Assembly: GCA_947491475.1 (NCBI GenBank)
Contig: CANLKN010000008.1
Location: 1 to 55,195, forward strand
Direction: 5' to 3'
Length of the DNA: 55,195 nt
From: Akkermansiaceae bacterium
GTDB taxonomy: Bacteria; Verrucomicrobiota; Verrucomicrobiia; Verrucomicrobiales; Akkermansiaceae
Position numbers and translations under genes: made by a program. The notes under the pieces are model-generated. The model ran no database searches and had not been told where the DNA came from. It saw only the letters and a program-made list of their open reading frames with translations. Every line of letters starts with the position of its first letter. Position 1 is the first letter of the stretch. Below are positions 16,561-38,575 of the stretch, in pieces.

Positions 16561-17652
16561 ATGACCTTGAACGACCTAACGAAAAGAAGGCTCGTCACTG
16601 CCGCGCTGCCCACCCCCCAGATCTCCGGCATCAAGGAAGTCAGCGGGCATAACAAAAGCGCCGCGCTCGTGTTCACACACCCTGCGAACAGAAGCGACAT
16701 CACGGAATCGCTCTGGATCGCCCACAACGGCCCCGTCACCGCCGCCCCCGTCATCACCCTGCCACCAACTAGCCAGACGGTGAACATCGGTGCCCGTCTC
16801 GCCCTGCGCGCTCTCGCCACCGGCGGTGGCCTCACATGGGAATGGCGGCGCGGCGGCACGCTCATCAGCACGGCCACGCACGGCGAACTGGTGCTCGATC
16901 CCTGGACCGCCGCCGATGCTGGCGCGTGGACGGTCACCGTTTCCAACACCTCGGGCTCCACCTCCGCCAACTTCACCCTGACAGCGGCCACCACCCAGAT
17001 CACGCCACCATCTTTCATCGCGCAGATACCCTCGCGCCATGTGCTGCCCGGCATCAGCGTCTTATTCACAGCCAGCCTCATCGTCCACCCTGGCGGCGCG
17101 GTGGTCAGCTACCAGTGGCTGAAAAACGGCATCCCCGTCCCCGGTGCCACCGCTTCCACCTACAGCCTCGGTGCCGTCAACGCCAGCCATGTCGGCGCCT
17201 ACAGCGTCGTCGTCACCAACGCCGCCGGCTCCGTCACCTCCAATGTCGCGCAACTCACCGTCGGCTTGACCGCCGCCGCCCCTCCGCCACTCTCCATCAC
17301 CCAAACCGGCAGCGACCTGCACCTCTCCTTCCCCGGCGTGAATGGTCGCACCTACCGCCTTGAGGAAAGCACCACACTCACCGGCTGGACCCCCGTGGAA
17401 TCCTTCCCCGGCACCCCGAAGGCATGGACCTACCCGATCGGCACTGGCAAACACTTCTACCGCGTAGTGGACACCACATCCAGACTGAGATTCGCGAGAC
17501 ACCCACAGTGGATGCCGCTTCGACGTAGGTGCATGCCTCGGCGATCTTCTCCACAACCGCTCGATGCCGCCGATCCGTTCTCATGGACAGAAAACTACCC
17601 CAAAGACGCTCTGGCGTCCATCGCGCGCGGCGGGGCGCGCGGGCGTCGTTAA
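16561..17652 (+). pseudogene. Ig-like-domain surface protein, truncated at both ends
   Basis: The frame encodes two Ig-like domains of the type common in verrucomicrobial cell-surface proteins (about residues 60-145 and 147-240; ADAGAWTVTVSN and HVGAYSVVVTN are the paired strand motifs). A short beta domain ending in GKHFYRVV follows, the usual end of such proteins. There is no signal peptide and the first 55 residues are not domain-like, so the 5' part appears lost. From base 17472 the frame runs into a 272-bp block that occurs again at 20142, adding about 60 basic, low-complexity residues before a stop. I read it as a remnant whose 3' end was disturbed by the integration beside it. Confidence 0.6.
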
Positions 17653-17743
17653 GAAGCGCCAAAAAACCACCCTCCATTGACCATCCTGTTTTCGATGCGC
17701 TTTCGTGCTCTTTTTTGCACTTTTCCAAGGATGCTCAAACGCT
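17472..17743 (-). repeat. 272-bp direct repeat, copy 1 (HTH-like gene fragment)
   Basis: This block matches 20142-20413 with three substitutions and no gaps. On the minus strand an open frame begins at a TTG near 17728, with an internal ATG at 17584. Its end, VVEKIAEACTYVEAASTVGVSRISVWMW, looks like a helix-turn-helix of the homeodomain/terminase-small-subunit type. In this copy the frame runs on without a stop into the antisense of the Ig-like gene. Both copies lie directly downstream of a tRNA-Arg 3' end. Confidence 0.75.
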
Positions 17744-17782
17744 TTGTTTTATCTTAACTTTCTTATTTAAGAGCTTTAAGCG

Positions 17783-17829
17783 TGGTGCCCCGGACGGGAA
17801 TCGAACTCATATTTAAGGTTTAAGAAACC
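17783..17829 (-). repeat. attachment site: 3' fragment of tRNA-Arg(CCU)
   Basis: These 47 bases repeat the tRNA-Arg 3' half including CCA (20454-20500) with two differences. One difference changes the anticodon triplet from CCU to CUU, the other is in the T stem. The 5' half of the tRNA is absent, so it is not a functional gene. It lies 82 bp before the integrase, as expected for an att site of a tRNA-targeting tyrosine recombinase. Confidence 0.85.
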
Positions 17830-17911: not shown

Positions 17912-19174
17912 ATGGAAGAAAATAGGCGCATGAAGAAACCCAAGGCGAGATTATGGACGGACCCGAAAACCGGCAAGCAGTATCTCCGGGTCCGCAGCAC
18001 GGATGCCAATGGCAAGTCGGTTGCCCGGATGTTCACCGAGCAGGAGGACGCCGATGAATACATCGCAACGCTGGTCAAGGAGCGCAAACGCCATGGGGCG
18101 GCGGCAGTGAACAGCGATGAGATCGACGCGCTCCGGGTCTGGCGGGAATATGTCTCGAAGGAACATACAGCCGGACGGGATGCGCCTGCCCTTCGTGATG
18201 TTATCCGGGGAACCATCGAGCGCCTGTCCGTGGGCACATCGACCGCCGCGCTCAGTGATCTTCACAAGAAGTTCAGGGATAGCCGCGAGAAGGCCGAGCT
18301 TTCGGCCAGCCATGTTTCCGGCCTGAAATACCGGCTCAAGCGATTTGTCTCCTATTTCCCGAAGGATGAGGCGGCAGGCAACATCAACACGGAAGCAATC
18401 GAGCGGGCGCTTTCTTCGATGCGGGCGGGCGGACTGACGGCGCAGACCGTGAAAGGGATTCGGGGTGCCGCCCATGCGATGTTCGAGTGGGGCGTGGACC
18501 GTGGCTTAGTTGGCAGCAATCCGGTATCCCGCAGCAAAGCGCCCAAAGTCACCCAAGGCGAGGTTGGCACCATCACCGCCTCGCAACTCAAAGGGCTCTT
18601 GCGCACGGCGCTCAAGACCAACCCGCAGATGGTTCCGGCGCTGGCGACATGGGCATTCACCGGAGTTCGTCGCGCCGAACTCTGCCGCCTCCGCTACGAC
18701 GACTTCGACCACGCCCGCAAGGAGTTACGGGTGAGCGCCGCAGCGGCCAAGACCGGCACGGCCCGGTTCATCCCGATCCCGCCATGCCTCAAAGAATGGC
18801 TGGATGCGGCCAAGGCTGCGGGCGTGCTGCCGGTGGGCAAGATCATCCCCGGCGATACCGACATGCTGGCCGAGGCGTGGCTGAACCGGGAGTTCTTGAG
18901 CGTAAAGGCCGATGCCGGACTCACGGAGTGGCCGCAGAATGCCATGCGCCACAGCTTCGCTTCCCATGCTTCGGCGAAGTTCGAGGACTTCGGCAAGGTC
19001 GGCGCATGGATTGGACACGCTCAGGATGCCGGCTTGCTTATCCAACGCTACCGCCATGCCGTGCGGAAGTCGGAGGGCGAGGCGTGGTTTGAGGTGCTTC
19101 CCAAGGACAAGCCAGCCAAGAAGGCCGCCAAGAAGGCCGCCCAAAAAACACCTGCCAAGCGAAAAGCAGTCTGA
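17912..19174 (+). CDS. Tyrosine recombinase / site-specific integrase
   Basis: 420 residues. The N-terminal part is a basic DNA-binding region, a core-binding SAM-like domain spans about residues 105-200, and the catalytic domain follows. Visible catalytic residues are Arg in TGVRRAEL (about 252), Arg in NAMRHSFASH (about 347), His in WIGHAQ (about 369) and Tyr in LIQRYRHAV (about 379). The first His of the canonical HxxR box is replaced by Asn, a variation I believe occurs in other integrases. The C-terminus is a Lys/Ala-rich tail (KKAAKKAAQK), unusual and perhaps DNA-binding. It begins beside the tRNA-Arg fragment and likely catalysed insertion of the element. Confidence 0.92.
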   Translation: MEENRRMKKPKARLWTDPKTGKQYLRVRSTDANGKSVARMFTEQEDADEYIATLVKERKRHGAAAVNSDEIDALRVWREYVSKEHTAGRDAPALRDVIRGTIERLSVGTSTAALSDLHKKFRDSREKAELSASHVSGLKYRLKRFVSYFPKDEAAGNINTEAIERALSSMRAGGLTAQTVKGIRGAAHAMFEWGVDRGLVGSNPVSRSKAPKVTQGEVGTITASQLKGLLRTALKTNPQMVPALATWAFTGVRRAELCRLRYDDFDHARKELRVSAAAAKTGTARFIPIPPCLKEWLDAAKAAGVLPVGKIIPGDTDMLAEAWLNREFLSVKADAGLTEWPQNAMRHSFASHASAKFEDFGKVGAWIGHAQDAGLLIQRYRHAVRKSEGEAWFEVLPKDKPAKKAAKKAAQKTPAKRKAV

Positions 19175-19242: not shown

Positions 19243-19548
19243 GTGACCTTTGAGGAAGATCCCGATTTCACCGAAAAAGCCCTCCGCCTGATCGGTGACG
19301 ATGGGATTTTCGCGATCCAGATGTTTTTGATGCAGCAACCCGACGCCGGTGACATCATTCCCGGTTCCGGTGGCTGCCGCAAACTCCGCTGGGCTGCCAA
19401 GGGCCACGGAAAACGGGGCGGCGCTCGCGTCATCTACTACTGGTTCACCGACGATCACCGCATCCTGCTTCTCGACCTCTACGCCAAGAACGAAGCGGAG
19501 AATCTCAGTCAAGCCCAATTGAAGGAACTTAAACGCAAGAAACCATGA
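19243..19548 (+). CDS. RelE/HigB-type toxin
   Basis: 101 residues from a GTG start. It has the RelE-superfamily layout: an N-terminal helix region, then a beta sheet with CRKLRWAAKGHGKRGGARVIYYW, LLLDLYAKNEAENLS and a basic C-terminus. The GGARVIYYWF...LLLDLYAKNE stretch is the strongest marker of HigB-like (PF06296/RelE) toxins, which cleave mRNA on the ribosome. It precedes its antitoxin, the order typical of higBA, and overlaps it by ATGA. The basic residues needed for catalysis appear present, so the toxin may be active. Confidence 0.87.
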   Translation: MTFEEDPDFTEKALRLIGDDGIFAIQMFLMQQPDAGDIIPGSGGCRKLRWAAKGHGKRGGARVIYYWFTDDHRILLLDLYAKNEAENLSQAQLKELKRKKP

Positions 19549-19931
19549 AAGCCAACACCACCAAGACCGCTGACAACCCTCCAGCCGCATCCGCGCTCAA
19601 GGCCAAGAAGGACGCGCTGATGAAGGGCGAGCGCGCTCCCTCTAGGGTTTTTCGCATCGTGCAAAACTCTGATGGAAGCTTCTCCCGCGTGGCCGTGAAT
19701 CCCGAATCCCAACGCCGCAGAACCGCCAAGACATGGGAAGCCAAGAGCGAAGTCGCCAAAGTCCGCCAGTCCCTCGGACTCACACAGGAAGACTTCGCCG
19801 GGTTGCTCGGAATCGGCCTCAGCACGCTCCGCAGTTGGGAGCAAAACAAGCGCGAACCCTCCGGCGCGGCCCGCATGCTTATCACCATCGCCCTCAAACA
19901 TCCCGAAGTGCTGCAAGAAGCAGTGGCTTGA
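19545..19931 (+). CDS. HigA-type antitoxin, XRE helix-turn-helix
   Basis: 128 residues. The C-terminal half is an XRE/Cro-type HTH (about residues 73-113: VRQSLGLTQEDFAGLLGIGLSTLRSWEQNKREP). The N-terminal about 70 residues are Ala/Lys-rich and probably flexible, the part that would wrap around and neutralise the toxin. The start codon overlaps the toxin stop by ATGA, so the two are translated in step. The protein should bind the palindrome at 19192. I infer that the pair stabilises the small element by post-segregational killing. Confidence 0.87.
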   Translation: MKANTTKTADNPPAASALKAKKDALMKGERAPSRVFRIVQNSDGSFSRVAVNPESQRRRTAKTWEAKSEVAKVRQSLGLTQEDFAGLLGIGLSTLRSWEQNKREPSGAARMLITIALKHPEVLQEAVA

Positions 19932-20141: not shown

Positions 20142-20413
20142 CACCACATCCAGACTGAGATTCACGAGACACCCACAGCGGATGCCGCTTCGACGTAGGT
20201 GCATGCCTCGGCGATCTTCTCCACAACCGCTCGATGCCGCCGATCCGTTCTCATGGACAGAAAACTACCCCAAAGACGCTCTGGCGTCCATCGCGCGCGG
20301 CGGGGCGCGGGGGCGTCGTTAAGAAGCGCCAAAAAACCACCCTCCATTGACCATCCTGTTTTCGATGCGCTTTCGTGCTCTTTTTTGCACTTTTCCAAGG
20401 ATGCTCAAACGCT
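20142..20413 (-). repeat. 272-bp direct repeat, copy 2 (HTH-like gene fragment)
   Basis: Nearly identical to 17472-17743. The minus-strand frame (TTG near 20398, ATG near 20254) is the same, but a substitution turns the CGA codon of copy 1 into a TGA stop at 20162-20164. The product would end at AASAVGVS, in the middle of the HTH. Between the block and the tRNA lie about 40 bases that are not conserved between copies. Confidence 0.75.
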
Positions 20414-20453
20414 ATATTTTCTCACAAGTTGCTTATCTTAAGCGTTTTAACCG

Positions 20454-20528
20454 TGGTGCCCCGGACGGGAATCGAACCCATATTTAAGGTTTAGGAAACC
20501 TCCGTTCTATCCATTGAACTACCGGGGC
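20454..20528 (-). tRNA. tRNA-Arg (anticodon CCU)
   Basis: A full cloverleaf is readable on the minus strand: 7-bp acceptor stem (GCCCCGG with CCGGGGC), D stem GUUC/GAAC, anticodon stem GAGGU/ACCUU with loop UUCCUAA, a four-base variable loop, and a T stem AUGGG/CCCGU with loop UUCGAUU. The CCA end is encoded. It reads AGG codons. The 3' half is duplicated at 17783-17829, which marks it as the integration site. Confidence 0.96.
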
Positions 20529-33174: not shown

Positions 33175-33549
33175 TCAGATTCTCACAGAAAGCCAGTCGC
33201 CGCTTATGATGCGGCGGCTTTCATCCACCGGTCCCAGCCATTCCCAGACCCAAGCGGAAAACGGCGACCGGTGATCACCGCCGCATCGCACCTGCGCCAT
33301 GACTCGGCGGTATTCTGGTCCCTCAAAATCATCGAGGCTCTCTAACAAGCTCGCGGAAATCTGATAGACCTCGCCGGTGATTTCATCCCCCGAGTCATCC
33401 GCTACCAGGCCCGGATACCAATCGATGCCATAGAGCCTGCCGCGCACGGTTCCAGCCGCGATAAACTCCGCACCCGCCATGCGGAAATGCTGCGAGCCGC
33501 CGCGACGCAGCGTGCCATAGACAAAGACAGGTGTTTCAGCAGTGATCAT
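33175..33549 (-). CDS. Gamma-glutamylcyclotransferase-like (AIG2/GGCT) protein
   Basis: 124 residues from the ATG at 33549. PVFVYGTLRRGG is the substrate-loop motif of the GGCT superfamily. GLVADDSGDEITGEVYQIS and LLESLDDFEGPEYRR follow, with a conserved Glu in the second. Members cyclise gamma-glutamyl amines to 5-oxoproline. It converges with the DUF5703 gene; the two stop codons are only a few bases apart. Confidence 0.87.
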   Translation of the reverse strand: MITAETPVFVYGTLRRGGSQHFRMAGAEFIAAGTVRGRLYGIDWYPGLVADDSGDEITGEVYQISASLLESLDDFEGPEYRRVMAQVRCGGDHRSPFSAWVWEWLGPVDESRRIISGDWLSVRI

Positions 33550-33769: not shown

Positions 33770-34306
33770 ATGCGCAATGACATCGAACGGGTATTGATCG
33801 ACGAGGAAGTGATTGAAAAGCGGCTCGATACGATGGCGGCGGAAATCGAGCGGAATTTCCCGGAAGGCCCGTTGGTGGTGATCATTCTGCTCAAAGGCGC
33901 GCTGGTGTTTGCCGCCGACCTGCTGCGGCGCGTGCCGCGGGTGCTTGAGATCGAGTGCCTGAATGTGGCGAGTTATCACGGCGGGGTGGAAAGCTCCGGC
34001 CGAGTGGATTTCCTCGACCGTCATTTTCCCGAAGTGCGCGGGCATCATGTGCTGTTGCTCGATGACATCCTCGATACCGGCCGCACGCTGCATGCGGTGA
34101 AGGAGCGCTTGCTGGAGGAAGGAGCGGAGGCGGTGCACACGGCTGTGCTGCTGGCCAAGGACAAGCAGCGCGCCGAGGAGGTCAGCGCGGATTATGTCGG
34201 CTTTGAGATCGGCGACGAGTTCGTGGTCGGCTATGGCCTCGATTATCAGGGGAAATACCGCAACCTGCCCTATGTCGGCGTGCTCAAGCTGTCTGTCACG
34301 CATTGA
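33770..34306 (+). CDS. hpt: Hypoxanthine phosphoribosyltransferase
   Basis: 178 residues. Hpt salvages hypoxanthine and guanine to IMP and GMP using PRPP. LLKGALVFAADLLRR is the first pyrophosphate-binding loop. HHVLLLDDILDTGRTL is the 13-residue PRPP signature with both acidic residues. The region DYVGFEIGDEFVVGYGLDYQGKYRNLPYVGVL contacts the purine and closes the family. The gene converges with dnaE, and a REPIN-like element fills the gap right after its stop. The substrate PRPP is made by prs at 47806. Confidence 0.94.
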   Translation: MRNDIERVLIDEEVIEKRLDTMAAEIERNFPEGPLVVIILLKGALVFAADLLRRVPRVLEIECLNVASYHGGVESSGRVDFLDRHFPEVRGHHVLLLDDILDTGRTLHAVKERLLEEGAEAVHTAVLLAKDKQRAEEVSADYVGFEIGDEFVVGYGLDYQGKYRNLPYVGVLKLSVTH

Positions 34307-34308
34307 CT

Positions 34309-34334
34309 CTCAATCGCCGAGCCAGCGGTCGAGC
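34309..34334. repeat. 26-bp direct repeat flanking the REPIN, left copy
   Basis: Identical to 34486-34511, which is the last 24 bases of dnaE plus its flank. This copy starts three bases after the hpt stop codon. It does not belong to a gene and looks like a duplication of the dnaE end. Confidence 0.9.
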
Positions 34335-34338
34335 AAAC

Positions 34339-34477
34339 CGTGGCGCGGGCGTCTCGCCCGCCGCCATATCAAGCATGCGGCTGCTGGCCTGAGAGCTCAT
34401 CAATCGGTGTGTCACGTGTCATCTTGTAGATAGTAAGAGATTGTCAGAAAGGCGGCGGGCGAGACGCCCGCGCCACG
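34339..34477. repeat. REPIN-like element (paired inverted REP sequences)
   Basis: A 139-bp block with perfect 27-bp inverted termini (34339-34365 and 34451-34477). Each terminus contains its own hairpin: GCGGGCG, loop TCT, CGCCCGC. Such REP doublets in inverted order are mobilised by RAYT (Y1 transposase-like) proteins. The central 85 bp is not coding. The element sits between convergent hpt and dnaE and is flanked by a 26-bp direct repeat. Confidence 0.88.
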
Positions 34478-34485
34478 TCGCGATG

Positions 34486-34511
34486 CTCAATCGCCGAGCC
34501 AGCGGTCGAGC
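34486..34511. repeat. 26-bp direct repeat flanking the REPIN, right copy (dnaE end)
   Basis: Same sequence as 34309-34334. It contains the dnaE stop codon and the codons of its last seven residues. Confidence 0.9.
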
Positions 34512-37500
34512 GAGGATTCGAGTTCCTGGCTGCGCTTGACATTGAATGATTCGTTAGCGGCCACGGTGACGCGGCGGCCGGCGCTGTTTTGAAAATGCAA
34601 CAGCACCGGTGTGGGCCCTGGATGCCTGGAGAGCGCGTTGCGGATTTCCAGCAAGTCCATCTCGCTGTGGCGGGTGGTCCAGAGCATCAGTTCGAGCGGT
34701 CCCTTGCCATTGGATGAAGCGCGCTTGGGCTTGAGCTCGCTTAGCTCATAGCCGGTCAAGCGGCGGCCGCCGGTGCGGTCGTCCACCTGCACCGCGCACT
34801 TGAGCTTGATGATCTTCCCTGCTTCTAACAACCCTGCCTCGCGTGCGGGCACGAAGGTTTCGCCCCACAGCATGATTTCGGCGTTGCCGGTGAAATCCTC
34901 GATCACCATCACGCCGAAGGGTTTGCCAGTCTTGGTGACCTTGGACTCTACCGAACGGATCATCCCGGCGAAGGGGAAACGCTCGCGCGCGTTTGAAATG
35001 TCCAGATCATCGAGAAGTCCGAGCCGTTTGTAGCGCTCCGAGTCGATCACGCCGCGGAATTTGTCCAGCGGGTGGCCGGTGACGTAAAAACCTAACAGTT
35101 CCTTCTCATGGACGAGGCGGTCGTCCTTGCTCCATTCCTCCACCGGTGTCTCGTTGGCAGTCGATTTAGCGGACTGCGCGGGTGCTGCAAACTCCATCGC
35201 ATCGAACAAGGAAACCTGGCCGGCGGCCTTGTCGCGCTGTGCCGACGAGGCGGAGGCCACCACTTGTTCGAGGCGGTTGAACATGCCGGCGCGGGTTTCC
35301 CCGGTCCAGTCGAGCGCGCCGGCCTTGACCAGGTTTTCGAGGATGCGCTTGTTGACGACCTTGGAATCGAGCCGGGTGGAGAAATCCTCGATGGAGGAAA
35401 ACTTGCCGTGGATTTCGCGCTCGGCGATGGCGGCGGCCATCGCTCCCTCACCGCAGTTTTTAATGGCGGCCAAACCGTAGCGGATGCCTTTCACTCCATT
35501 GAGCGCGACTTCCGGTGTGAAACGCAGTTGTGAGGCATTGAGATCCGGCGGCAGGATCTCGATGCCCATGCGGTGGCACTCGGAAACAAAGACGCCGATC
35601 TTGTCGGTGTTGTGAATTTCGTTGGACAGCAATGCGGCCATGAACTCGACCGGATGGTTCGCCTTGAGATAAGCCGTCCAATACGAGATATGCCCATAAC
35701 AAGCCGAGTGGGATTTGTTGAATCCATAGCCCGCGAACATTTCGATCTTGTCGAAAATCTGTGCGGCGAGTTGCGCGCCGATGCCGTTGGTTTTCGCAGC
35801 GCCTTCCACGAACTTGCCGCGTTCCTCGGCCATTTTCTTCGGGTCCTTCTTGCCCATCGCTCGGCGCAGCAGGTCCGCTCCGCCGAGCGTGTAGCCAGCC
35901 AGCAGTTTCGCGGCGTTCTGGACCTGTTCCTGATAGATCATCACGCCGTAGGTGTTGCCGCAGACCTGTGCTAACAACGGATGCTCGAACATCGGCTTCT
36001 TACGGCCCTTTTTCACCTCGATCATCTGGTCGATGAACTGCATGGCGCCGGGACGGTAGAGAGCGAGCAGGTCGATGATGTCGTCGATCTTCTCGATCTG
36101 GTATTTGCGGCAGGTTTCGACCATGCCGCCGGATTCGAGCTGGAACACGCCCATTGTCTCGCCGCGGTTGAGGATTTCAAAGGTCGGCTGGTCATCGAGC
36201 GGCACTTTTTCAATGGTGAAATCCGGCTTGTGTTTGCGGATGTGCTGCACGGCCTCGTGGATGACGGTGAGGTTGCGCAGGCCGAGGAAGTCCATCTTGA
36301 GCAGGCCCACCTCGGTGATGGCTCCCATGTCATATTGGGTGACCACTTCGCCCTCGTTGCCGCGGGTGAGCGGCACGTGCTCATCGAGTTCCCGGTCGCC
36401 GATGACGATGCCCGCGGCGTGGATGCCGACGTTGCGGTTGAGTCCTTCGAGCGTGAGGGCGTAGCGCCAGAGTTCCTGATAGGTGGTGGATGCCCCGACC
36501 ACATCGTGAAGCTCGGTGTTCTTATCGAACTCACGGCGCAGGATGGAGGATCCGTATTTCTCCTTGTCCTCTTTTTCGTTGGGCTTCGGATCGATGAGTT
36601 TCGAGAGTCGGTCGCCATCGCCATAGGAAAGGCCCATCACTCGGGCGACGTCGCGCACCACACTCTTCGCTCCCATGGTGCCATAGGTGATGATGTGGGA
36701 AACACTGCGGTCGCCGTATTTTTTCCTCACATAATCGATCACCTCGGCGCGGCGGGACTGGCAGAAGTCGATATCGACGTCGGGCGGGCTGACGCGCTCC
36801 GGGTTGAGGAAACGTTCGAACAACAAGCCGAACTCCAGCGGACAGATATCCGTGATGCCCATGGCGTAGGAGACGAGTGAACCCGCCGCGGATCCACGGC
36901 CGGGGCCGACCGGGATATCGTGATCGCGCGCCCACTGGATGAAGTCCGCGGTGATGAGGAAGTAGGAGGCGAAGCCGAGTTGGTTGATGGTGCCGACTTC
37001 GAAGATGAGGCGTTCCTGGATGTCCGGGCGCACGGCTTTTTCCGCGCCGTAGCGCCTGATGAGCCCTTCCTGGCAGACGCGCATCAGGTATTCCTCGCGC
37101 GGGCTGCCATCCGGTGTGCCGAATTGCGGGTATTTCTCGGACGAGGTGGAGTCGAGCTTGAGTTCTACGTTGCAGCGCCCGGCAATCTCCAGCGTGGCAT
37201 CGCAGGCACCGGGCACATCCGCGAAGATGGAGCGCATTTCCTGCGGGGATTTGAAATGCACTTCCGGGGTGTAGCGCATGCGGTTTTCATCGACGAGCTG
37301 GTGGCCGGTGCCGATGCAGATCATCACATCGTGCGCCTCGTGGTCTGCGCGATCGAGGAAATGCACATCGTTTGCCGCCACGGTTTTGAGCCCGAATTCG
37401 GAGGCCAGTTTGAGCAGGCCGGGGCGGATGCGGCGCTGCGGTTCCATGTCGTGGTTATGGATTTCCACGTAGGTGTTTTCCCGGCCGTAGATGTCGATCA

Positions 37501-37993
37501 GTTCTGCGAGTGTCTGGCGGGCCTTGTCCTCGTCGCCCGCGAGCAACCACTCGTTCACCGGGCCGGAGATGCAGCCGGTGAGGCAGATGACGCCTTTTGA
37601 AAACTCGCGCAGCGCCTCGCGGTCCACGCGTGGCTTGCCGTAGTAGAGACCTTCGAGGTGGCCTTTGGAAACGAGCTTCGAAAGGTTGTTCCAGCCTTCG
37701 GTGGTCTCGGCCAGCAGCGTCATGTGAGTGGCGCGCTTGCGGCCGATGAGGTCCTTCTTTTCCGTCATCGACTGCGGTGCGAGGTAGATCTCGCAACCGA
37801 GAATCGGCTTCACTCCCGCTTTTTTGCAGTTTTGGTAAAAATCGACGGCCCCGTAGAGGTTGCCATGGTCGGTCATCGCCACCGCCGGCATGCCGAGTTG
37901 CGCCGCGCGTTTGGCCAGATCCTTGGTGCGGATCATGCCGTCGAGAAGGGAAAACTCAGTGTGGACGTGGAGGTGGACGAAGGAATCGGACAT
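34487..37993 (-). CDS. dnaE: DNA polymerase III alpha subunit
   Basis: 1168 residues from the ATG at 37993 (an upstream in-frame ATG at 38032 is not family-like). DnaE is the replicative polymerase. The N-terminal PHP domain starts FVHLHVHTEFSLLDGM, retaining the HxH of an active or metal-binding PHP. The catalytic aspartates are in PDVDIDFCQSRR near residue 405. The palm, fingers (YKNQ-like GYGFNKSHSACYG) and helix-hairpin-helix (LEALLKAGALD-like region around residue 900) follow. The OB-fold is near 1000 (FAGMIRSVESKVTKTGKPFGVMVIEDF). This is a DnaE1-type subunit. The stop codon lies within a 26-bp repeat beside the REPIN. Confidence 0.97.
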   Translation of the reverse strand: MSDSFVHLHVHTEFSLLDGMIRTKDLAKRAAQLGMPAVAMTDHGNLYGAVDFYQNCKKAGVKPILGCEIYLAPQSMTEKKDLIGRKRATHMTLLAETTEGWNNLSKLVSKGHLEGLYYGKPRVDREALREFSKGVICLTGCISGPVNEWLLAGDEDKARQTLAELIDIYGRENTYVEIHNHDMEPQRRIRPGLLKLASEFGLKTVAANDVHFLDRADHEAHDVMICIGTGHQLVDENRMRYTPEVHFKSPQEMRSIFADVPGACDATLEIAGRCNVELKLDSTSSEKYPQFGTPDGSPREEYLMRVCQEGLIRRYGAEKAVRPDIQERLIFEVGTINQLGFASYFLITADFIQWARDHDIPVGPGRGSAAGSLVSYAMGITDICPLEFGLLFERFLNPERVSPPDVDIDFCQSRRAEVIDYVRKKYGDRSVSHIITYGTMGAKSVVRDVARVMGLSYGDGDRLSKLIDPKPNEKEDKEKYGSSILRREFDKNTELHDVVGASTTYQELWRYALTLEGLNRNVGIHAAGIVIGDRELDEHVPLTRGNEGEVVTQYDMGAITEVGLLKMDFLGLRNLTVIHEAVQHIRKHKPDFTIEKVPLDDQPTFEILNRGETMGVFQLESGGMVETCRKYQIEKIDDIIDLLALYRPGAMQFIDQMIEVKKGRKKPMFEHPLLAQVCGNTYGVMIYQEQVQNAAKLLAGYTLGGADLLRRAMGKKDPKKMAEERGKFVEGAAKTNGIGAQLAAQIFDKIEMFAGYGFNKSHSACYGHISYWTAYLKANHPVEFMAALLSNEIHNTDKIGVFVSECHRMGIEILPPDLNASQLRFTPEVALNGVKGIRYGLAAIKNCGEGAMAAAIAEREIHGKFSSIEDFSTRLDSKVVNKRILENLVKAGALDWTGETRAGMFNRLEQVVASASSAQRDKAAGQVSLFDAMEFAAPAQSAKSTANETPVEEWSKDDRLVHEKELLGFYVTGHPLDKFRGVIDSERYKRLGLLDDLDISNARERFPFAGMIRSVESKVTKTGKPFGVMVIEDFTGNAEIMLWGETFVPAREAGLLEAGKIIKLKCAVQVDDRTGGRRLTGYELSELKPKRASSNGKGPLELMLWTTRHSEMDLLEIRNALSRHPGPTPVLLHFQNSAGRRVTVAANESFNVKRSQELESSLDRWLGD

Positions 37994-37999
37994 CGGGCT

Positions 38000-38575
38000 G
38001 CCGGACGGTAGCGGAGCCGCGGCCGAGGGCAAGCGGTGGGTAAATCCGGCGGGTCTTTTCCTGCTCCCTCTGGGGTGAACTTACCGAAGCATGGGAAGAC
38101 GAGGCATCCTGGCTTTTTCGCAGTTCGGGCTTCCAGCGTGGCTGGCTGCAGGAAAAAATGGCCATGGGATTCAAGATCCAGCCTTCGCTCAAAAGCTACG
38201 GCGGACAAGTGCCTGCCGTCTGAGACGGCTTGGAAACCGATCCTCCGTTTTTGTGTGGTTGCGGTCATTCAACGGTGCGGCCAAGAGGCCAACCGATGTT
38301 GATCGCCAGTGAAAATCGGTCAATTTTCCCCTTGCGCCACGGGCAGACTGCCGCTTGGTTTTCCATGCTACATCTGTAGCCGAGCCCCCAAGTGCCGTCA
38401 TTCGGCGCTTTCCATCCACGTGATCCAGCCTGCTGGATCACGCGTCTGACGCCTTCCATCAACCCAAACCCACAGAACCCGCCTTATACGTGCATCCCGG
38501 CGCTTACCGCCGTAAAGCAAACGCCGCCCGTCTCCCTAGCCGGCTTCTTCAAACCCAAAAACCTGACCACAACCC
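38000..38575. other. Gene-free interval between dnaE and the autotransporter fragment
   Basis: About 580 bases with no convincing gene on either strand. It contains the dnaE promoter region and the 11-bp-arm palindrome at 38419-38442. I see no RNA gene. Confidence 0.5.
38419..38442. repeat. Perfect hairpin with 11-bp arms
   Basis: CGTGATCCAGC and its complement GCTGGATCACG are separated by only two bases. There is no T run, so it is not a classical terminator. It lies about 135 bp upstream of the autotransporter fragment. Confidence 0.75.

Follow-up and report, generated by a model that had tools for sequence, protein, structure and literature searches.

In the window, the whole stretch of 55,195 nucleotides of Akkermansiaceae DNA, an hpt-like phosphoribosyltransferase gene and dnaE converge on a short intergenic segment that holds a palindromic element and two copies of the last bases of dnaE (Table 1). 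The element lies between the stop codons of the two genes and outside both of them, and its two 27-nt arms, separated by 85 nt, are 100% complementary. The flanking 26-bp copies, each comprising the last dnaE codons, the stop codon and 1 bp further, are identical at 26 of 26 positions, with a start-to-start spacing of 177; they are set off from the arms by 4 bp on the left and 8 bp on the right, and the 151 bp enclosed between them contain no open reading frame (ORF) of at least 100 aa. With up to 3 mismatches allowed, the 26-mer occurs at only these two sites in the window and at none in 100 shuffles.

Table 1. Features at the hpt-dnaE junction (window positions)
Feature	Positions	Strand	Remarks
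hpt-like phosphoribosyltransferase gene	33770..34306	+	stop codon 34304-34306; Pfam Pribosyltran, 99.5 bits
Left (distal) 26-bp copy of the dnaE 3' end	34309..34334		starts 2 bp past the hpt stop
AGCAAAC, outer-arm remnant	34332..34338		3-base overlap with the left 26-bp copy (microhomology)
Left 27-bp arm	34339..34365	+	REP unit GTGGC-GCGGGCG-TCT-CGCCCGC at 34340-34361
85-bp spacer	34366..34450		between the two 27-bp arms
Right 27-bp arm	34451..34477	-	inverted REP unit at 34455-34476
8 bp TCGCGATG	34478..34485		no match among the other copies' arms
Right 26-bp copy, the intact dnaE end	34486..34511		identical to the left copy
dnaE, DNA polymerase III alpha subunit	34487..38032	-	Pfam DNA_pol3_alpha, 314 bits

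Folded as single-stranded DNA, the 139-nt element is far more stable than its shuffled versions (z = -9.18; 0 of 200 shuffles as stable), and each arm also folds alone, at -13.0 and -13.4 kcal/mol, with 0 of 200 shuffles as stable for either; the 8 bp TCGCGATG pair partly with the adjoining bases and contribute a 5-bp stem to the fold. The first-pass annotation had described the perfect arms, their separate folding, the position between the hpt and dnaE stops and the two identical copies of the dnaE 3' end, and all of these descriptions hold. Each arm consists of a GTGG tag, 1 nt, and a 7-bp stem, GCGGGCG/CGCCCGC, closed by the loop TCT, and the two inverted REPs are arranged head to head with the tags pointing outward, the 85-bp spacer falling within the 20-100 bp range of such pairs. 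The element is thus, with little room for doubt, a REPIN, a gene-free unit of two GTGG-tagged REP hairpins placed head to head.

The same REPIN call had been made in the first-pass annotation, which named a lack of other REP copies in the genome as the finding that would count against it and proposed a search for REP doublets and for a RAYT gene; the genome turned out to contain numerous REP sites, convergent doublets, 12 of which were examined, and 17 matches to the Y1 transposase domain. In the own genome, the 22-base REP unit is found 39 times when up to 2 mismatches are tolerated, against 0 for a reversed-pattern control; for the 17-base palindrome, with at most a single mismatch tolerated, the corresponding figures are 33 and 1. 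Among the 73 genomes of the genus that were searched, 16 contain matches to the 22-base unit, the own genome included (15 of the 72 others), with G089 ranking second after the own genome with 14 sites. When the 139-bp element was used as the query, 72 matches were obtained, mostly to single arms; the full length could be aligned at five other places, with 75-83% identity, and no donor copy closer than 83% was found in the assembly. A second arrangement of REPs is also seen, in which GTGG-tagged hairpins stand back to back, approximately 20 bp apart, around a common GCCACGTGGC center, mostly with the loop ATCCTG or ATTCTG (G000:C1:66689-66731, C16:6455-6496 and C35:24167-24208, among others; G000 is the own genome). 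In one case, a REP palindrome appears by eye to lie in frame within a Clp-ATPase-like coding sequence (L009, G000:C56:7606-7622).

Of the 17 Y1_Tnp matches in the own genome, 16 score above the Pfam cut-off, and three scanned proteins match REP_Tyr_transpos at 60-75 bits, below the cut-off of 80. The REPIN is presumably moved by an enzyme of this RAYT/Y1 kind. The GTGGC..GGGC..GCCC motif is absent near the Y1 genes at all 17 own-genome loci. The Y1 locus in ispG (C136) is the sole one of the 17 with tagged hairpins on both sides, in inverted orientation, each with a GTGG tag and a stem of at least 7 bp that differs from that of the window REPIN; single GTGG-tagged hairpins were detected at L127, L128 and L134. 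Closer to the hairpins of the window are the GTGGC-tagged ones that accompany a metH-embedded Y1 domain of G085.

The ispG locus belongs to a broader set of observations. Here, a RAYT-like Y1/HUH domain is located, in frame and free of stop codons, inside IspG (L119, G000:C136:1314-1949), within an 883-aa open frame that matches ispG_gcpE above the cut-off (463.6 bits) and REP_Tyr_transpos below it (75.4 bits). The IspG-type Y1 domain is matched at E <= 1e-20 in at least 61 of the 73 genomes of the genus, in many of them within open frames of 800-1460 aa. Pfam-confirmed Y1_Tnp domains are also found within MetH (G004, and G085 with two stretches in one frame), LeuS (G018, G072) and an Eco57I-type methylase (G075), and a match below the cut-off within an HsdR-like frame (G031); several of the embedded domains have paired REP-like hairpins on both sides. 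The transposase domain is thereby placed within housekeeping enzymes in an intein-like manner.

Comparison with the other copies of the family indicates where the window REPIN departs from them. Many copies extend past the core into a second inverted repeat, approximately TGAGCCGTAACCATGCAGTAGGATAGCAAACC on one side. In other copies, GCCACGGTTTGC is followed by about 25 bp of further sequence (TATCCTACTGCATGGTTACGGCTCA or a variant of it), whereas the window copy switches to the dnaE tail sequence right after GCCACGGTTTGC; read on the minus strand, the arm of the other copies continues GCCACGGTTTGCTATCCTACTG, while the sequence in the window copy is GCCACGGTTTGCTCGACCGCTGG and ends in dnaE tail. 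Only AGCAAAC is left of the outer arm on the hpt side, and nothing on the dnaE side. The AGC at the inner edge of the left 26-bp copy, together with the following AAAC, is found in the outer arm of other element copies as well, such that the arm breaks off where 2-3 bases match the dnaE tail, a coincidence with a chance of approximately 1/16 to 1/64. Among the nine other arms displayed, again on the minus strand, eight share GC and four share GCT. In several copies (for example, C13, C29 and C5; by eye), the first bases of the outer arm, TGA, coincide with the stop codon of the preceding gene.

The long flanking duplication, which the first-pass annotation had associated with REPIN insertion, is present at only one of the 12 doublets. 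Exact direct repeats were sought within 150-bp flanks on each side of the REP sites, and the idea that the family generally makes target duplications was rejected: among 12 doublets of the own genome and 28 single or back-to-back sites, a long repeat is found solely at the window copy. The longest exact repeat at the other 11 doublets is 13 bp (C92:12766, its two copies lying 43 bp ahead of the core and 79 bp behind it), and several other REP sites in the genome show repeats of 9-11 bp. In the relatives, 28 loci with a REP match yielded 5 distinct convergent pairs, of which four have no direct repeat of at least 11 bp and one has an 11-bp repeat at the outer ends that is partly the element's own arm (L354, G073:C283:3550-3682). 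A lone flanking duplication is therefore a poor guide to REPIN movement, given that the other 11 doublets have none comparable.

The scarcity of such repeats bears on the possibility that the REPIN inserted into a tight convergent hpt-dnaE pair, with 3 bp between the stops, where fill-in of the 26-nt ends of a staggered break produced a target duplication. A perfect 26/26 repeat does enclose the element, and the copies leave 2 bp to the hpt stop and reach 1 bp past the dnaE stop, as selection on both genes would require: with the genes so close, both would be spared only by an insertion with duplication or by a hit in the 3-bp gap. Against this stand the other 11 doublets without such a repeat and the 8-9 bp beside the right arm, which are left unexplained. 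Furthermore, target duplications are not known as products of Y1 HUH enzymes. The genomic neighborhood adds to these difficulties: a REPIN-free hpt-dnaE pair is found at none of the 50 other hpt loci, and no empty site was detected among either the hpt flanks or the dnaE flanks. Taken together, these points make a staggered-cut insertion possible but rather unlikely.

The junction itself is rare in the genus. dnaE is located within 1.4 kb downstream of hpt at one of the 51 hpt loci, that of the own genome. The 51 hpt flanks fall into 34 gene clusters and 26 dnaE flanks into 16, with the own locus the sole member of its cluster in both cases; hence gene order past hpt and dnaE appears to be poorly conserved and the ends of these genes seem to have been re-joined often, and the hpt-dnaE join may itself be recent. 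Nor did any locus show the converse state, with the window REPIN adjoining dnaE but not hpt. In the close relative G073, hpt adjoins xylA, and xylA was considered as the reciprocal breakpoint and rejected: the 4.3-kb xylA locus of the own genome contains no remnant of the REPIN, hpt or dnaE, so that no reciprocal scar was found there.

The first-pass annotation had offered a template switch or a staggered cut as the origin of the repeat. The former remains our best guess, the latter being kept as a rival; we put the chance that the 26-bp repeat is the scar of template-switch repair at about even. Under this scenario, the REPIN, presumably copied earlier by a RAYT (a Y1 HUH transposase) acting in trans, would either have been located beside dnaE beforehand or have arrived in the same event, and the occasion would have been the joining of the hpt and dnaE ends at a REPIN or the insertion of the REPIN between them. 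Minus-strand synthesis would have proceeded out of dnaE, across the REPIN and into the outer arm (..GCCACGGTTTGCT), slipped back to the identical two or three letters in the last dnaE codons, copied 23-26 bp a second time and then continued at the hpt 3' flank, yielding the order dnaE end, REPIN, second dnaE end, hpt. What is observed is the structure of the element, its REP family, the lack of such repeats at the other doublets, the arm truncation, the few shared bases and the rare neighborhood; the switch itself is what we infer from them. A few letters shared at the point of template change fit template switching and are, taken alone, weak evidence for it; the lack of an outer arm on the right side and the unexplained 8 bp imply that more than one step would be needed. 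The failure to find a donor copy closer than 83% or a reciprocal scar at xylA likewise counts against the scenario. If correct, the repair reading would let this locus serve as a compact and legible case of gene order being re-joined at gene ends in the genus.

Gene tails are also duplicated around inserts of other kinds. In the own genome, the tail of a cysN-like gene is present twice (G000:C13:32583-32686 and 33387-33490, L005/L317; 104 bp, 94%), with VapB/VapC-like ORFs between the copies and a REPIN after the far copy. The hpt tail is duplicated in G073 (L221; 168 bp, 91.7%) around ParD and PemK-like ORFs, and in G014 (L222; 116 bp, 81.9%) around ORFs matching Unstab_antitox and ParE. The dnaE tail is duplicated in G069 (L185; 275 bp at 97.1% and 123 bp at 95.9%), with PIN-like ORFs below the Pfam cut-off, in G092 (L186; 112 bp, 76.8%), with an ORF lacking a Pfam match, and in G060 (L188), where the copy was found at the protein level near HicB/HicA-like ORFs on a contig other than that of dnaE. 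Toxin-antitoxin matches thus exceed the Pfam cut-off at four of these six loci, with one below it and one without a match. The first-pass annotation had held that the repeat should be missing from relatives without the REPIN, an expectation that is borne out in part: in 28 other loci with a readable dnaE end, the downstream sequence, covered over 71 bp to about 1.5 kb, repeats no 12-mer of the dnaE tail, whereas the longer dnaE-tail duplications, with other inserts, occur in three genomes (G069, G092 and G060) out of the 68 that have a dnaE match. A mechanical scan for tail duplications produced 10 candidates in 855,195 bp of the own genome and 11 in 400,000 bp of G069; many of these are low-identity or intragenic repeats, and accordingly no rate is claimed. 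Elsewhere in the window, a 359-bp direct repeat (17472-17829 and 20142-20500; 95.5%) encloses a tyrosine-recombinase-like ORF (17912-19174; NCBIfam match below the cut-off) and RelE-like and HTH-type ORFs (19243-19931), and this region is probably an integrated element.

These duplications, in the own genome and five congeners, raise the possibility that the window repeat, too, arose by insertion with a long target duplication, whereby foreign DNA bearing a copy of a gene 3' end joins there and the old tail is left behind. The fit is poor, however: the copies measured at the DNA level span 104-275 bp and have diverged by 3-23%, whereas those of the window are 26 bp long and identical, and the 151-bp insert contains neither an ORF, in place of the gene unit between direct repeats of about 100 bp that defines this class, nor the recombinase gene expected of an element integrated at a gene 3' end. 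We therefore consider this origin improbable and, given the differences in length and divergence, treat the tail duplications as a rival class and as a lead. A broader and equally doubtful idea is that gene 3' ends are a general capture site in the genus, with a single replication-repair process recopying the last bases of a gene while pasting in DNA, such that the host gene stays whole. If so, the captured DNA would have been a REPIN at dnaE here and, elsewhere, toxin-antitoxin cassettes at cysN, hpt and dnaE; the smallest member would be the 26-bp case, and REP hairpins would be the start points of the switch.

A metagenome bin may also contain assembly or amplification artefacts, and the join or the repeat could be one of them. 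The window is an entire contig of a 182-contig genome, and two other contigs end inside copies of the element (L011, at the end of G000:C76, and L017, at the start of G000:C119; the two may be neighbors in the chromosome), so the element family does break the assembly. Nevertheless, hpt and dnaE are both intact, and no other copy is more than 83% identical to the 139-bp one, so that the element is unlikely to have mediated a false join; an artefact thus seems very improbable.

With respect to further study, the in-frame Y1/RAYT-like domains and the tail duplications around toxin-antitoxin genes are stronger leads than the REPIN repeat. No description of either was found in the literature searched, which is not proof of absence.

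Among known systems, the closest counterparts of the window element are the REPINs (Bertels and Rainey 2011, PMC3116915), with which it shares two inverted REPs forming a short mobile unit, a high copy number and RAYT-type genes; it differs from the REPINs described there in the GTGG tag, the stem, the spacer, the host phylum and the 26-bp direct repeat. The insertion of a restriction-modification unit with a long target duplication, cited in PMC3874152, likewise places an insert between direct copies of the target, but there about 100 bp surround a gene unit, compared with 26 bp around a gene-free REPIN in the window. REPs have been delimited as hairpins that have a stem of at least 7 bp and a loop of 2-5 nt and that follow a GTAG or GTGG tag at a distance of 0-2 nt, and REPs bearing a 5' GT[AG]G tag stand on either side of the TnpAREP genes of subclasses 2.7 and 2.8 (Quentin et al. 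2018, PMC6006769), an arrangement that the GTGG-tagged hairpin pair of the ispG Y1 domain resembles. In GTAG-tagged head-to-head (HH) REP dimers, the tag is on the outside, the stems are mostly 6-9 bp and the hairpins are mostly 20-100 bp apart, and in the GTAG-20 elements of the verrucomicrobium Opitutus terrae the tag is mostly GTGG (Di Nocera et al. 2013, PMC3733652). Some of those dimers lie inside larger palindromes, as is the case for the outer arms of the window family; no description of a direct duplication around a dimer was found in that work, from whose main text the word "duplication" is absent, whereas the window copy has such a duplication. The window REPIN adds a GTGG-tagged family in the Akkermansiaceae to the known REP families.
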